A DNA stretch of 64,000 nucleotides from Planctomycetota bacterium (GTDB lineage: Bacteria; Planctomycetota; Planctomycetia; Pirellulales; UBA1268): positions 1 to 64,000 of the forward strand of contig VGZO01000003.1 of the NCBI GenBank assembly GCA_016872555.1, in the 5' to 3' direction. Positions 53,211 through 61,954 of this stretch are shown piece after piece. The number at the start of each line of letters is the position of its first letter. The stretch's first letter is position 1. A model generated the notes under the pieces. The model did no database searches. It worked only from the letters and a program-made list of their open reading frames with translations, and had not been told where the DNA came from. Made by a program: the position numbers and the translations under genes.

Positions 53211-53297
53211 ATGGCCCGCGCCGGCTCCGCCAATCGCCGACCGGGGTGATGGTTGCCCTTGCACCGCGGCCGCCCGGGACGGGAAAACCTCCGCATC

Positions 53298-53323
53298 GCC
53301 CCCGTGGCGGAATCGGCACACGT
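53298..53323 (+). other. Possible tRNA-Leu 5' fragment
   Basis: The 26 bases read GCCCCCGTGGCGGAATCGGC followed by ACACG. The GTGGCGGAATxGGCAxACG core is typical of the acceptor/D-arm half of tRNA-Leu. No anticodon arm, T arm (GGTTCGA) or 3' acceptor strand follows, so this cannot be a working tRNA. It may be a leftover from recombination at a tRNA gene, or chance. Confidence 0.3.
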
Positions 53324-53377
53324 CGCCGACCCCCGGCCGCGAGCGGCACGCTTTCACCGACCAGCGGGCACACGACC

Positions 53378-55291
53378 GTGGATTGGCAAAGCCTCCTCAC
53401 CGCGGTGGTCGTCGTCGTCACGCTGGTGCTGCTGTCGTCGGCGCAGCGCGCCCCCGACATGGCGATGATCGGCGGCGTGGTGGTGCTCCTCGCCGCCGGG
53501 GTCCTGACCCCCGACGAGGCCCTCAAGGGGATGGCCAACGAGGGAATGATCACCGTCGCGGCGCTGTTCGTGGTGGCCGCGGCGGTCGAGCGGACCGGCG
53601 CCCTGGCGCTGGTCGTCGACCGGGTGCTCGGCAGGCCGAAGTCGCTCGAAGCGGCGCAGTTCCGCACGATGGCCGGGCCGGCGCTGGTGTCGGCGTTGAT
53701 GAACAACACCCCCGTCGTCGCCCTGATGGTGCCGGCGATCCGTACATGGGCCGCCAAGCACCGGCTCAGTGTGTCGAAGCTGCTGATGCCGATGAACGCC
53801 GCGGTCGTCCTCGGCGGCCTGTGCACGCTGATCGGCACGAGCACCAACGTCGTCGTCAGCGGCCTGCTCAAGGCCAAGACCGGGGAGCCGATGGGGATGT
53901 TCGACATCTCCTGGCTCGGCGTGCCGCTGCTGGCGGTGGGATTCGTCTACCTGCTCGTCGCCAGCCGGCACCTCCTCGTCGACCGGCGCCCGGCGATCAG
54001 CGAGACCGACGACCCGCGTCAGTATTCGGTCGAGATGGAGGTCGATCCCGCCAGCGCGCTGGTGGGGCGGACGATCGAGGAGGCGGGGCTCCGCGGCCTC
54101 GACGGGCTGTTCCTCATGGAGATCGACCGGGCCGGCCACGTGCTCGCCGCGGTCGCCCCGAGCGAACGCCTCGAGGCCGGCGACCGGCTGGTGTTCGTCG
54201 GCGTGATCGACAGCGTCGTCGAGTTGCAGAAGATCCGCGGCCTGCGCCCCGCCACCGACCAGGTGTTCCAGCTCGACGGGCCACGCAGCGAGCGCGTACT
54301 GGTGGAGGCGGTCGTCTCGCCGGCCTGCCCGGCAGTCGGCCTGTCGATCCGCGACGGCCGCTTCCGCACCGCCTACGACGCGGTGGTGATCGCCGTGGCC
54401 CGCAACGGCGAGCGCCTCCAGGGGAAGCTCGGCGACATCGTCCTCGAGCCGGGCGACACGCTCCTCCTCGAGGCGAGCCCCGGTTTCATCGAGCGCAACC
54501 GATCGCGCCGCCACTTCTACCTCGTCAGCGAGATCGCCGGTGCCCAGCCCCCACGGCACGACCGGGCCTGGATCGCCGGCGCGGTCCTGGTGGCGATGGT
54601 CGCCGCCGCCGCCAGCGATCGGGTGCCGATGGTCGCCGCGGCCCTCGTCGCCGCCGGCGTGGTGATCGCCACGCGCTGCATATCGGCCGGCGAGGCGCGG
54701 CGGGCGATCGAGTGGGAGTCGCTGCTGCTGATCGCCGCCAGCTTCGGCCTCGCCAGGGCGCTGGAGAAGACCGGCCTGGCCGGGATGCTGGCTCAGGCCA
54801 CGATCTCGGCCGCCGGGTCGAACCCCTCCGCCGTGCTGGCGGCCGTCTACCTGGTGGCGATGCTGTTCACCGAACTGATGAGCAACAACGCCGCGGCGGT
54901 GCTCGTGTTCCCGATCGCCTGGCAGGCAGCGGCGGACCTCGGCGTCAATCCGCTGCCGTTCGTGATAGCGATCACGGTCGCCGCCAGCTGCGGCTTCGCG
55001 ACGCCGATGGGCTACCAGACCAACCTCATGATCTACGGCCCGGGCGGCTACCGGTTTTCCGACTACCTGCGCTTCGGCGGCCCGCTCAACCTGCTGGTGA
55101 TGGCCGTCACGGTGGCACTGGCACCGCTGATCTGGCCGTACGGTGCCCGGGCGACCGCACCCGCCGCCACCACGCCCCGGCCGGCGGCCGCGCTCGCTCC
55201 CGCTCCGCCCCCCGGCGAGCCGGGCGCTCAGCCGGCAGCGATCCCGGCGACGACGTCGGCGAGCCGGTCGATCTCGGCGACGGTGTTGTAG
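53378..55291 (+). CDS. SLC13/DASS-type transporter with two RCK_C (TrkA_C) domains
   Basis: A 637-residue membrane protein starting at a GTG (VDWQSLLTAVVV, a typical family start). Two transmembrane halves (about 5-190 and 390-600) flank two cytoplasmic TrkA_C/RCK_C domains (about 220-300 and 305-380, with LEAGDRLVFVGV and LEPGDTLLLEA). Transport motifs are NNTPVVALMVPAI and LMSNNAAAVLVFPIA. Family members move dicarboxylates, sulfate or phosphate with Na+; the sulfur-rich neighbours make sulfate a fair guess. Its 3' end overlaps the converging cysteine-desulfurase gene by 64 bases. Confidence 0.9.
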   Translation: MDWQSLLTAVVVVVTLVLLSSAQRAPDMAMIGGVVVLLAAGVLTPDEALKGMANEGMITVAALFVVAAAVERTGALALVVDRVLGRPKSLEAAQFRTMAGPALVSALMNNTPVVALMVPAIRTWAAKHRLSVSKLLMPMNAAVVLGGLCTLIGTSTNVVVSGLLKAKTGEPMGMFDISWLGVPLLAVGFVYLLVASRHLLVDRRPAISETDDPRQYSVEMEVDPASALVGRTIEEAGLRGLDGLFLMEIDRAGHVLAAVAPSERLEAGDRLVFVGVIDSVVELQKIRGLRPATDQVFQLDGPRSERVLVEAVVSPACPAVGLSIRDGRFRTAYDAVVIAVARNGERLQGKLGDIVLEPGDTLLLEASPGFIERNRSRRHFYLVSEIAGAQPPRHDRAWIAGAVLVAMVAAAASDRVPMVAAALVAAGVVIATRCISAGEARRAIEWESLLLIAASFGLARALEKTGLAGMLAQATISAAGSNPSAVLAAVYLVAMLFTELMSNNAAAVLVFPIAWQAAADLGVNPLPFVIAITVAASCGFATPMGYQTNLMIYGPGGYRFSDYLRFGGPLNLLVMAVTVALAPLIWPYGARATAPAATTPRPAAALAPAPPPGEPGAQPAAIPATTSASRSISATVL

Positions 55292-56118
55292 AACGCCAGC
55301 GACGGGCGCACGGTCGCCTCGAGACCGAAGTGCCGCAGCGACGGCTGGGCGCAGTGGTGGCCGGCCCGGACGGCGATGCCGGCGCGGTCGAGCCGCTGCC
55401 CGATCGCGACCGGGTCGTGGCCGGCGAGCACGAACGACAGCACGCCGACCTTGTCCCGCGCCGTCCCCACCAGGCGCAGTTTGTCGATCGCCTCGAGACG
55501 CCGGGTGGCATGGTGGAGCAGCGCGTAGTCGGTAACGTAGAACCGCGCGAGGGCGTCGATCACCGCCTGCGGCTTGTGCGTGGTGGCGGCGTTGTCGAAC
55601 CAGGCGAGCGGGTGCCCGTGGATCCGCTCCTGGAGGATCGGGAAATCGAGACGCACGCGATCGACGTCGAAGCCCGCCGCCGCGGCGGTCGCCGGCACGC
55701 CCGCTGCCGACTGGAGCCCGGCGCCCTGCCACGCCGGTAGCGGGGCGGACTGCCGGTGGTCGAGGCCGCGGACCTGGCTCACGAACCGCCGCAGCCCCGT
55801 CCAGTCGGTGGTGCCCCGCTGCACGGAATGATGATGAGTCGCCGGCGCGGCCTCTCGCGGCTGTTGGGGGAGCCCATGGGGCTGGAGGAGCCCGCTGGGG
55901 AGGGTCATCCCGGTCGGCAGGGGGACGTCGACCTGCTGGCCTGCGGCCGAGGGAATCATCGGGGCAGGCACCGGCGCCGTGGGGGGGGCCGTCGGCGGCG
56001 CCATCCCCCCGACGGCGGCTGCCGCGATGGCGTCGCGCGCCAGCCGCGCGGCGGCGGCGCCGATCTCCTCGGCGGCGGTCCCCGACCTGTTGGTCCCGAT
56101 CACGTCGGACATGCTCAT
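55228..56118 (-). pseudogene. Encapsulin-type cysteine desulfurase with internal deletion
   Basis: A 296-codon frame. Residues 1-140 are a Pro/Ala-rich, disordered region of the type that targets cysteine desulfurases into family 2 encapsulins. A SufS-like fold then begins (WFDNAATTHKPQAVIDALARFY) but jumps directly to the C-terminal domain (YALLHHATRRLEAIDKLRL), ending with the active-cysteine loop RAGHHCAQP. Compared with SufS about 260 residues are missing, including the PLP-binding lysine region (SGHKLYGP). The frame is kept, but the product cannot bind PLP. It follows the shell gene by 36 bases. Confidence 0.8.
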
Positions 56119-56154
56119 GCTGTTGTTTCCGGTTCGCTGGTCCCGCCTCGGCCG

Positions 56155-57374
56155 TCAGATCCCCGACCCTTCGGCCTGCGCTCCGCGCGTGATCGCCCGG
56201 TCGTCGTGGTAATAGCCCACCTCGGCGTTCTCGAGCTTGTCGCAGGGTACCAGCGGCACGCCGCGCCACATGATCACCGGCGAGCCGTGGATCGTCGTCG
56301 TCACCGGCGGCACGCCGCGGCGCGTGCACTCGCGCTCGAAGGCGGCGATCGCCTTGGGGTGGGCGAGGAAGAAGGCGGGCTTCTTCCAGACCAGCGACAG
56401 CAACTCGTCGAGGTCGTCGGGGGTCGGGGCGCCGTAGCGCGTGCTGACGCGCATCGCCGGGTCGACCGAGTGGAGCAGCCCGAACTTCTGGTTGTTGATC
56501 AGTTCCCACTCCTGGCGCTCCTTGATCCCCTCGATGGTGAGGCGGATCTGCTCCTCGAGCTGGTCGTAGGGGCCGTTGTAGAGGTCGGAGACGCGCGTGT
56601 GGACGCGGACCACGGTCTGGATCGCGGCCAGGGCGTATTCGCGCGGATTGGCGGCGTAGTCGACGAAGGTCTCGGGAATCTCGACGTTCTCGGCGAAGCC
56701 CGAGACGAGGTCGATGTTGCGCTCGCCGTAGCGGTTGACGCTCGACCGCAGGGCGAGGTGCTCGTCGACCGCCTGCCGGAACGAGTCGCGCTGGGCGGGA
56801 AGATTGTCGAGCACCGCGTCGAGATCCTGGCGCGAGAGCGTGAGCAGCACGCAGGGGGTGATCGTCCGCACGGTGATCCCCGACGGCTTGTCGCTCACCA
56901 GATCGACCTCGCCGAAAAACTCCCCCTCGGCGAGCAGGGCGGCGCGGAGATCGCGGCCGTGGACCCCCTTGGAGAGGATCTCGACCTGCCCCTGGGCGAT
57001 CACGAAGAACGTGCTGCGATCCTGCCCCTCGATGAGCAAGTCGCTGCCCAGCGGCACCTCTTCGGTGCGGAAGCGCTGCTGCATCTGTTCGAGCAGCGTC
57101 TCGGGAAACCGGGAAAACAGCGGGACGCTGCGCAATTCACCGGAATTGAAGGCGAGGCCGCCATCGGCCGGCACGATCTCGATCCGCTCCGCCTTGGAGA
57201 GCTCGACCTTCGTCCGGTTGACACGTACACGCCCCCTTCGACCTGCACCCAGGGGAGCAGGTGGAGCAGATGCCGCGGGGTGATCGACATCATCATCGGC
57301 CGCGTCTTGGTCGTAGTGGCCAAGTTGCGGGCGACGGCGGTGGTCACGCTGCGCTGGAGAAGGCTGTCGGACAT
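56155..57374 (-). pseudogene. Family 2 encapsulin shell protein with cyclic-nucleotide-binding domain, frameshifted
   Basis: The N-arm starts at the ATG at 57374 ([32 protein letters not shown]) as in SrpI-type encapsulins. At about 57224-57230 one base is missing (expected TACCGTGTC, found TACGTGTC); the rest ([22 protein letters not shown]) continues in another frame to 56155. A cNMP-binding domain follows ([32 protein letters not shown]), then the shell domain (DLYNGPYDQLEEQIRLTIEG). Between WRGVPLVPCDKL and ENAEVGYYH about 65-70 residues of the shell fold are absent. cysK lies 42 bases upstream and the desulfurase 36 bases downstream. Confidence 0.85.
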
Positions 57375-59920: not shown

Positions 59921-61528
59921 TCAGTCCCGAAACCGCCCCGGCTCGACCCCCAGCTTCCGCATCCGCGCGCGGAGCGTGTGGGGATTGATCTGGAGCAGGG
60001 CCGCCGCGCCGCGCGGTCCCTCGATCCGCCCGCGCGTCGCTGTCAAAGCCCGCTCGACATGGCGGCGCATCGTCACGGCCAAGGGGACGATGTCGGCCAA
60101 CGCCGGCGCCGGCTCGACGGCGGCCGCCAGCGGCGTACTTTCGGGCACGACCTCGAACAACGTCGGATCGGTGGCCGGCACCGGCGGCGGCGGACGCCGC
60201 CCCAGGCCGAGCGCCGCCGCCACGTCGAGCCCGCGCCCGCCGCCGAGGATCGCCGCCCGATCGATCACCGCCCCCAGTTCGCGGATGTTGCCCGGCCAGT
60301 CGTATTCGCCGAGCAGCAGGAGGTCGGCGCTGGTCGGCTCGACCTCGGGAAGGCCGAACCGCACCGCCGCCCGGTGGGCGAAATGACGGACCAGCGCCGG
60401 GATGTCCTCGCGGCGCTCGCGGAGGGTGGGAAGGAGGATCGGGAACACGTTCACGCGGTACCAGAGATCCTCGCGGAACGAGCGCTCGGTGACCATCGCG
60501 GCCAGGTCGCGGTGGGTGGCGGCGACGATCCGCACGTCGACCCGCACCGGTGCCTTGCCACCGACGCGCTCGATCTGGTGGTCCTGGAGCACGCGGAGGA
60601 GGCGGACCTGCGCCGGCAGGGGGAGCTCACCGATCTCGTCGAGAAACAGCGTGCCGCGGTCGGCGCGCTCGAACCATCCCTGGTGCTGGTCGGCGGCGCC
60701 GGTGAAGCTCCCCTTCTCGTGCCCGAAGAGCTGCGAATCGACGAGCTCCGGTGGGATCGCGCCGCAGTTGACGCGGATGAACGGCCCGTCGGCACGTTTC
60801 GAGCGGGTGTGGATCGCGCGGGCGACCACCTCCTTGCCGGTGCCGGTCTCGCCGAGGATCAGCACCGGCACGTCGGAGCGCGCGACCAGCTCGACCCGCT
60901 CCATCACGTGCCGCAGCCCGGTGCGGGCGCCGACGACATCCTCGGCGATCTCCTGCCGGCCGAGCCGCGACAGGAGCGAGCGCCGATCGGCCTCGGCCGC
61001 CTGCCGCAGCGACCGCAGCTCGTGGAGCCGGGCGTCGTTTTCGAGTGTCACCGCGAACGGCTCGAGGAGCCGGGCGACGAGCGCCCGGTCGGCGGCGGAA
61101 AATGCTTCGCCCGATGCCGGCTCGAACACGACGGCGCCGAGCGGGCCATCGACACCGCACAGCGCCCCTGCCAGGCCACCGCGCGGATGGCCGACCGCCG
61201 CCACGAGCGCGGCGACCGCGGCGTCGTCGGTCGTGGCCACCGCGCCGCTCCGTACCCAGGCGACGAGCCTCCGCCACTGCGCCGCAGCGAGCGGCGTGGC
61301 CGGGGAGGCCGGCTGGGGGGCACCCGACGGACCGGCGCTCGCCACGACCTCCACGCGCTGCCCATCGGCGACGATGCGCACCACGTGGATGCCCGCCACA
61401 GGAAACGCGGCCGAGAGCACATCGGCAATCGCGTCGACCGCGACAGCAATCTCGAGGTGCCGGCCGGTCTCGCGCCACACCGCGGCGAGGGGGTCGGTTT
61501 CGGTCATGGCGGCTGCGTGTCGGATCAT
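59921..61528 (-). CDS. Sigma-54-dependent transcriptional activator with GAF domain
   Basis: A 535-residue enhancer-binding protein. N-terminal GAF-like domain (about 25-170), AAA+ domain (about 195-430) with GETGTGKE, the sigma-54 contact loop GSFTGA, and Walker B GTLFLDEIGEL, then a Fis-type helix-turn-helix (about 490-535, AALLQINPHTLRARMRKLG). No receiver domain precedes it, so it probably senses a small ligand. Two starts are possible (ATG at 61528 and 61507); neither has a strong Shine-Dalgarno. It is divergent from the DUF2292 gene, whose promoter it likely drives. Confidence 0.9.
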   Translation of the reverse strand: MIRHAAAMTETDPLAAVWRETGRHLEIAVAVDAIADVLSAAFPVAGIHVVRIVADGQRVEVVASAGPSGAPQPASPATPLAAAQWRRLVAWVRSGAVATTDDAAVAALVAAVGHPRGGLAGALCGVDGPLGAVVFEPASGEAFSAADRALVARLLEPFAVTLENDARLHELRSLRQAAEADRRSLLSRLGRQEIAEDVVGARTGLRHVMERVELVARSDVPVLILGETGTGKEVVARAIHTRSKRADGPFIRVNCGAIPPELVDSQLFGHEKGSFTGAADQHQGWFERADRGTLFLDEIGELPLPAQVRLLRVLQDHQIERVGGKAPVRVDVRIVAATHRDLAAMVTERSFREDLWYRVNVFPILLPTLRERREDIPALVRHFAHRAAVRFGLPEVEPTSADLLLLGEYDWPGNIRELGAVIDRAAILGGGRGLDVAAALGLGRRPPPPVPATDPTLFEVVPESTPLAAAVEPAPALADIVPLAVTMRRHVERALTATRGRIEGPRGAAALLQINPHTLRARMRKLGVEPGRFRD

Positions 61529-61556: not shown

Positions 61557-61583
61557 GTCGTCCGTGATATTTGGTCGGACGAC
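61557..61583. promoter_or_regulatory. Palindromic operator candidate for the sigma-54 activator
   Basis: Perfect 8-bp inverted repeat: GTCGTCCG (61557-61564), 11-base spacer, CGGACGAC (61576-61583). It lies about 29 bases upstream of the activator ATG and about 120 bases upstream of the -24 element of the DUF2292 promoter, the usual distance for an enhancer site. Related CCGTSACAT-like half-sites flank it at about 61543 and 61587. Binding by the Fis-type HTH is inferred. Confidence 0.5.
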
Positions 61584-61705
61584 AACCGTGACATGTTCAG
61601 GAAAACCGCCGCTCGGCCCCGACCACGATGGTTCCCCGTCACACTGGGAAAGACAAACCGGCACCCACGTCACGGAGGGGCGTGCCTGGCGTTCGGATCG
61701 GGTCC

Positions 61706-61721
61706 CGGCACGGCACTTGCC
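61706..61721 (+). promoter_or_regulatory. Sigma-54 (-24/-12) promoter of the DUF2292 gene
   Basis: The 16-mer reads CGGCACGGCACTTGCC. Against TGGCACG-N4-TTGCW it differs only at the first and last base; the essential GG and GC and their spacing are exact. It lies 45 bases upstream of the ATG at 61766 and shares its region with a divergent sigma-54 activator gene and a palindrome, so it is a strong candidate. Confidence 0.8.
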
Positions 61722-61765
61722 ATACCAAAGGAGTCAGCAGTCCTTCCAATCGTGAGGAAGCCGCC

Positions 61766-61954
61766 ATGCCGGACGGACCCGACTCCCCACGGCCGATCGA
61801 AACGCAGTCCTCCGCGCAGCCGGCGACTGACGCCGTCCTGAGACGGATCGGCGACGCCCTGCGCGGGCTCCGCTTCGGGTCGGTGTTGGCGATCGTGCAA
61901 GACCGCGTCGTCGTCCAGATCGAACGAACCGAGAAAACGCGCTTTCCTCGCTGA
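61766..61954 (+). CDS. DUF2292 (YezD-like) small protein
   Basis: A 62-residue protein. The conserved part RRIGDALRGLRFGSVLAIVQ and then DRVVVQIERTEKTR is the DUF2292 pattern; the Bacillus YezD relative sits in sulfur-regulated operons. The first ~20 residues are Pro/Ser-rich. AGGAAG precedes the ATG at 61766. A near-consensus sigma-54 promoter sits directly upstream and the divergent gene encodes a sigma-54 activator, so its expression is probably switched on by that protein. Its biochemical role is unknown. Confidence 0.82.
   Translation: MPDGPDSPRPIETQSSAQPATDAVLRRIGDALRGLRFGSVLAIVQDRVVVQIERTEKTRFPR

Follow-up and report, generated by a model that had tools for sequence, protein, structure and literature searches.

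Introduction

In activators of the NtrC/NifA/NorR type, an AAA+ domain with Walker A and Walker B motifs and a GSFTGA loop is joined to a GAF-like domain at the N-terminus, and the protein works from upstream sites on a -24/-12 promoter. The planctomycete locus described here has the same layout, but its activator comes with its own predicted operator of three 16-bp sites and, judging from relatives, with a sulfate importer as its target. Among described sigma-54 activators, SfnR of Pseudomonas, which serves dimethyl sulfone use, belongs to sulfur-starvation metabolism according to titles cited in PMC8234197. Compared by description, the present activator resembles SfnR in acting, as predicted, in sulfur-starvation metabolism. 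SfnR, however, answers to CysB and governs sulfone genes, while the predicted target of the present activator is the sulfate importer; no SfnR model appears among the 25 listed of 28 NCBIfam matches. The sigma-54 regulons of Clostridiales are also similar in that several upstream sites lie mostly 100-250 bp from the promoter and each activator usually has one target operon, but the pathways named in the accessible part of that account are cysteine and methionine catabolism, not sulfate import (PMC6615313).

On the side of the target gene, the closest described system is OscA of Pseudomonas, which is tied to sulfur starvation and chromate resistance (PMC2996968) and whose gene is linked to genes for a sulfate-binding protein and an ABC importer. 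A first-pass annotation of our locus had called the role of its DUF2292 protein unknown, which is not wholly so in light of this relative from the same Pfam family. Since the planctomycete protein scores 42 bits against the NCBIfam OscA equivalog NF033785, below the cut-off of 85, we term it OscA-like rather than OscA (its gene is written oscA for short). Its gene also differs in setting: it lies behind a sigma-54 promoter, as the last gene of an operon in relatives and without an importer here. Family 2 encapsulins have likewise been linked to sulfur starvation (PMC8049743). Sigma-54 control of a sulfate ABC importer did not turn up in our search of the open literature, whose coverage was limited so that absence is not proof, and sulfate goes unmentioned in the main text of a 2025 cross-phylum sigma-54 survey covering Planctomycetota (PMC12316311).

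Results

Features of the activator-oscA locus

We analyzed a 64-kb stretch of DNA (the window) from a planctomycete draft genome (the focal genome, G000), in which the following features surround one short control region.

61507..59921, minus strand: sigma-54 enhancer-binding protein (activator), 528 aa, with a predicted GAF domain (residues ~1-180), an AAA+ domain and a C-terminal, putatively Fis-like DNA-binding segment
61542-61557: predicted activator site 1, CCGTCACATCCCAAGG, 12.0 bits, third best in the window
61562-61577: predicted activator site 2, CCGTGATATTTGGTCG, 13.9 bits, top score of the window, spaced 20 bp from site 1
61586-61601: predicted activator site 3, CCGTGACATGTTCAGG, 12.8 bits, second-highest score of the window, spaced 24 bp from site 2
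61557-61583: inverted repeat GTCGTCCG-N11-CGGACGAC, judged incidental
61706-61721, plus strand: -24/-12 promoter CGGCACGGCACTTGCC, exact GG-N10-GC, predicted start near 61732
61766..61954, plus strand: DUF2292/OscA-like protein, 62 aa, PF10055 E=6.6e-14

Both genes named by the first-pass annotation, a divergent sigma-54 activator and a 62-residue DUF2292 gene, are confirmed. The activator matches the AAA+ sigma-54 interaction domain (Pfam PF00158, E=1.7e-70), and its GETGTGKE (Walker A), GSFTGA and LFLDEIGEL (Walker B) motifs are common to the aligned relatives with minor substitutions. The C-terminal segment, INPHTLRARMRKLG, is strongly conserved and matches no Pfam HTH family at E 0.001. 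An AlphaFold model of the N-terminal 180 residues (pLDDT 89.8) is GAF-like, and a Foldseek search with it returned a diverse set of GAF domain matches including the sigma-54 regulator domain 3k2n, so that the regulatory N-terminal domain is a predicted GAF sensor. The activator scores under the curated cut-off of every NCBIfam equivalog among the matches listed. The parts of the switch are all of known kinds, and we regard it as a new orthologous group of a known family. The small protein scores 51.7 bits against PF10055, above the gathering cut-off of 22; its AlphaFold model, of low confidence (pTM 0.49), consists of a helix and a hairpin, and a search of solved structures gave no meaningful match.

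The -24/-12 promoter and its exact GG/GC spacing also stand, while the reported agreement with 14 of 16 consensus positions does not: CGGCACGGCACTTGCC matches 10 of the 12 specified positions of the core consensus, or 13 of 17 in mrNrYTGGCACG-N4-TTGCWNNw. As a bare pattern the promoter is not above chance: with two mismatches allowed, the window contains 10 matches where 8.5 are expected, and four places have strict GG/GC and a core of 10/12. It is credible because it is conserved across relatives, a promoter being found at the equivalent position in the activator loci compared. The GG-N10-GC element, this conserved position and an RpoN encoded in the focal genome together identify it as a sigma-54 promoter, although at 10/12 it belongs to the weak end among these loci.

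Three predicted activator sites upstream of the promoter

The intergenic region of the activator loci contains a conserved 16-bp element, CCGTsAnATnTsACGG. We fitted a palindromic 16-bp matrix on the regions from activator start to promoter of 14 relatives, leaving the focal locus out; the seed consensus had been spotted by eye with the focal locus among the regions viewed, and the training loci are therefore not an independent test and the focal locus is only partly one. The matrix was applied to the window and the loci, and the whole genome was searched by pattern. The three top-scoring places in the 64 kb start at 61562, 61586 and 61542, and three such sites arose in none of 5000 dinucleotide shuffles of the region. 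The two-site (tandem) pattern occurs at the focal locus alone in the 4.47-Mb genome; in relatives, it occurs at activator loci and at isolated places. The usual geometry is three sites, 20 and 23-24 bp apart, mostly 88-164 bp before the promoter, and the focal sites, at 12.0-13.9 bits, rank toward the weak end.

Outside the fitting set, a promoter scoring 9/12 or more and two or more sites occurred together in 10 of 10 activator loci (the focal one and nine others), compared with 0 of 13 sbp operons that lack an adjacent activator. The corresponding Fisher p of 9e-7 is a guide only, the thresholds having been set after the training scores were seen and the species being related. Exceptions are the training locus L039, which has no site above threshold, and the activator locus L122, where three sites are strong but no promoter reaches 10. 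We infer that the activator binds the 16-bp sites.

A wider regulon in the focal genome was considered and not retained. The strict motif gave two matches per strand genome-wide versus one for the reversed control, and there was no clear site beyond the tandem at the focal locus. Within the window, no other site reaches 11.9 bits, the cysK and encapsulin genes included, and none were found in the stretches around the encapsulin genes that were scanned from G001 and G006.

The first-pass annotation had pointed instead to a perfect 8-bp palindrome as the likely operator. This inverted repeat is present and its sequence occurs once in the genome. However, the window contains 109 inverted repeats of this kind (8-bp arms, spacers of at most 15 bp) versus ~62 in shuffles, and this one is absent from the orthologous region of the closest relative. 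The palindrome is almost certainly not the site of the activator, and its overlap with the middle 16-bp site is a coincidence.

The same unit precedes a sulfate importer in relatives

To compare gene order, we mapped loci around DUF2292 genes together with 40 named loci of a species-level collection, using as queries the window proteins and Sbp, CysT, CysW and CysA of the congener G001 (names assigned by reading the G001 translations and from the order of the four genes). The comparison covered over 20 orthologous loci of other Planctomycetota, and these strongly support the annotated unit of activator, promoter and DUF2292 gene. The recurrent order is the activator on the minus strand followed by sbp-cysT-cysW-cysA-oscA on the plus strand; the activator is single-copy and nearly always divergent from sbp-cysT-cysW-cysA, after which oscA usually follows. 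That DUF2292 is the only clear target, as had been noted, holds for the focal genome, but in relatives the sulfate ABC operon stands behind this same set of activator, sites and promoter. On this comparison, the unit in relatives most likely turns on the sulfate importer.

With the putative DNA-binding segment as query (E below 1e-15), a clear activator orthologue was found in 18 of 59 genomes, and DUF2292 is present in 25 of the 59, the focal one included; oscA is carried by 16 of the 18 activator genomes versus 9 of the 41 others. No activator orthologue was found genome-wide in G008, G010, G011, G019, G020, G026 or G027. The oscA loci of these seven genomes lack an adjacent activator, and those that were scanned upstream of sbp have no sites there. 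Conversely, G012 and G051 have the activator and no detected oscA, with sbp still divergent from the activator and sites nearby, and for this reason the core target of the switch looks like the importer rather than oscA.

Variants of this order were observed. A second cysK copy lies between the activator and sbp at L039:3987-4883 (also in L078), which may make cysteine synthase a further target of the switch in the species of L039. At L034:2638-8250, activator and importer genes share one strand, with the importer genes downstream, and the sites and promoter point the opposite way, to the oscA match.

Sulfur genes near the switch

Near the switch, the window contains genes for cysK, a family 2 encapsulin and a cysteine desulfurase. 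The encapsulin shell and cysteine desulfurase cargo genes (55228-57374) look damaged relative to G001: the shell gene has a frame change near the N-terminus and lacks a stretch near the C-terminus, and a large internal part of the cargo gene is missing, through either real decay or an assembly error. A predicted multi-pass permease (53246-55291), SLC13-like by a reading of its sequence alone, lies close to these genes and adjoins the activator or the sbp operon in L028, L031, L044 and L046; it could be an alternative sulfate importer. Elsewhere in the focal genome (G000:C50:9957-11154), a SulP-type sulfate permease gene is seemingly split in two frames; the gene is unbroken in G003, G006 and G008.

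The importer is missing from the focal genome

In the window and in the congener G003, the activator and oscA are adjacent with the control region alone between them, and L070 has the same order. A CysW query found no match genome-wide in the focal genome or in G003, whereas five control genomes gave matches with E values of 1e-100 or lower. G003 is 74% complete, which makes the absence there weaker evidence, and the importer loss rests on draft genomes. One could suppose that the importer is missing only through an assembly error that fused the promoter to oscA, given that the draft consists of 162 contigs, that it shows further apparent deletions and that a SulP gene in it looks split, and given that G001, the closest relative by activator identity, retains the importer. 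We consider such an error very unlikely, with the locus contiguous in a 154-kb contig, the same order present in G003 in a sequence of its own, and CysW absent from both whole assemblies while the controls match. Since G001 keeps the importer and G003 is without it, the loss may have occurred more than once.

A loss of the importer leaves two possibilities for what remains. The switch and oscA might be a remnant, purposeless and degrading after the deletion, a reading that would fit the weak focal sites and promoter, an Arg in the focal OscA where 19 of 19 aligned relatives carry Gly, and the internal deletions in the nearby encapsulin shell and cargo genes. This is improbable in our judgment, because the activator is intact, oscA is under purifying selection with a pN/pS (0.14-0.33) inside the range among relatives, and in G003, where both promoter and sites are strong, oscA likewise follows them directly. 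On account of the intact activator and the pN/pS of oscA, we favor a working, slimmed switch.

Discussion

We think it probable that the region is a sigma-54-dependent sulfur-limitation switch, whose target is sbp-cysTWA-oscA in relatives and oscA alone here. In the proposed mechanism, the GAF domain of the activator would sense low sulfur, and the activator would assemble on the three 16-bp sites, 20 and 24 bp apart and 120-164 bp upstream of the promoter. DNA looping would bring the site-bound activator to the -24/-12 promoter, where it would spend ATP to open the RNA polymerase-sigma54 complex. In relatives, sbp-cysTWA-oscA would then be transcribed, yielding a sulfate ABC importer and the small OscA-like protein, while in the focal genome, with the importer genes apparently lost, the promoter would drive oscA alone. 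Comparative evidence supports the gene order, the promoter, the sites, the co-occurrence of sites and activator, and the importer loss as predicted from sequence. We infer the sulfur signal from the target genes, the nearby cysK and encapsulin/cysteine desulfurase genes, the family 2 encapsulin link and Pseudomonas OscA; OscA would presumably act in sulfur-starved cells.

A signal other than sulfur limitation, e.g., oxyanion or redox stress, is also conceivable but unlikely. GAF domains bind varied ligands, and the diversity of the Foldseek matches leaves room for such a signal. Pseudomonas that has lost oscA is susceptible to chromate, which also strongly induces the oscA-sbp unit, but the same study ties chromate stress to sulfate starvation (PMC2996968), and in the planctomycetes the conserved target is a sulfate importer with cysK nearby.

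With the operator motif, a regulon becomes testable in a phylum for which regulatory data are scarce. Some species have naturally lost the importer, which uncouples OscA from the transporter and makes OscA function directly testable. On balance, we lean toward the view that in planctomycetes a dedicated sigma-54 activator, acting through a triple operator of its own, controls sulfate import, and that some species drop the importer and keep the OscA-like protein under the switch. If true, OscA would have a role in sulfur-starved cells that is independent of the ABC importer.
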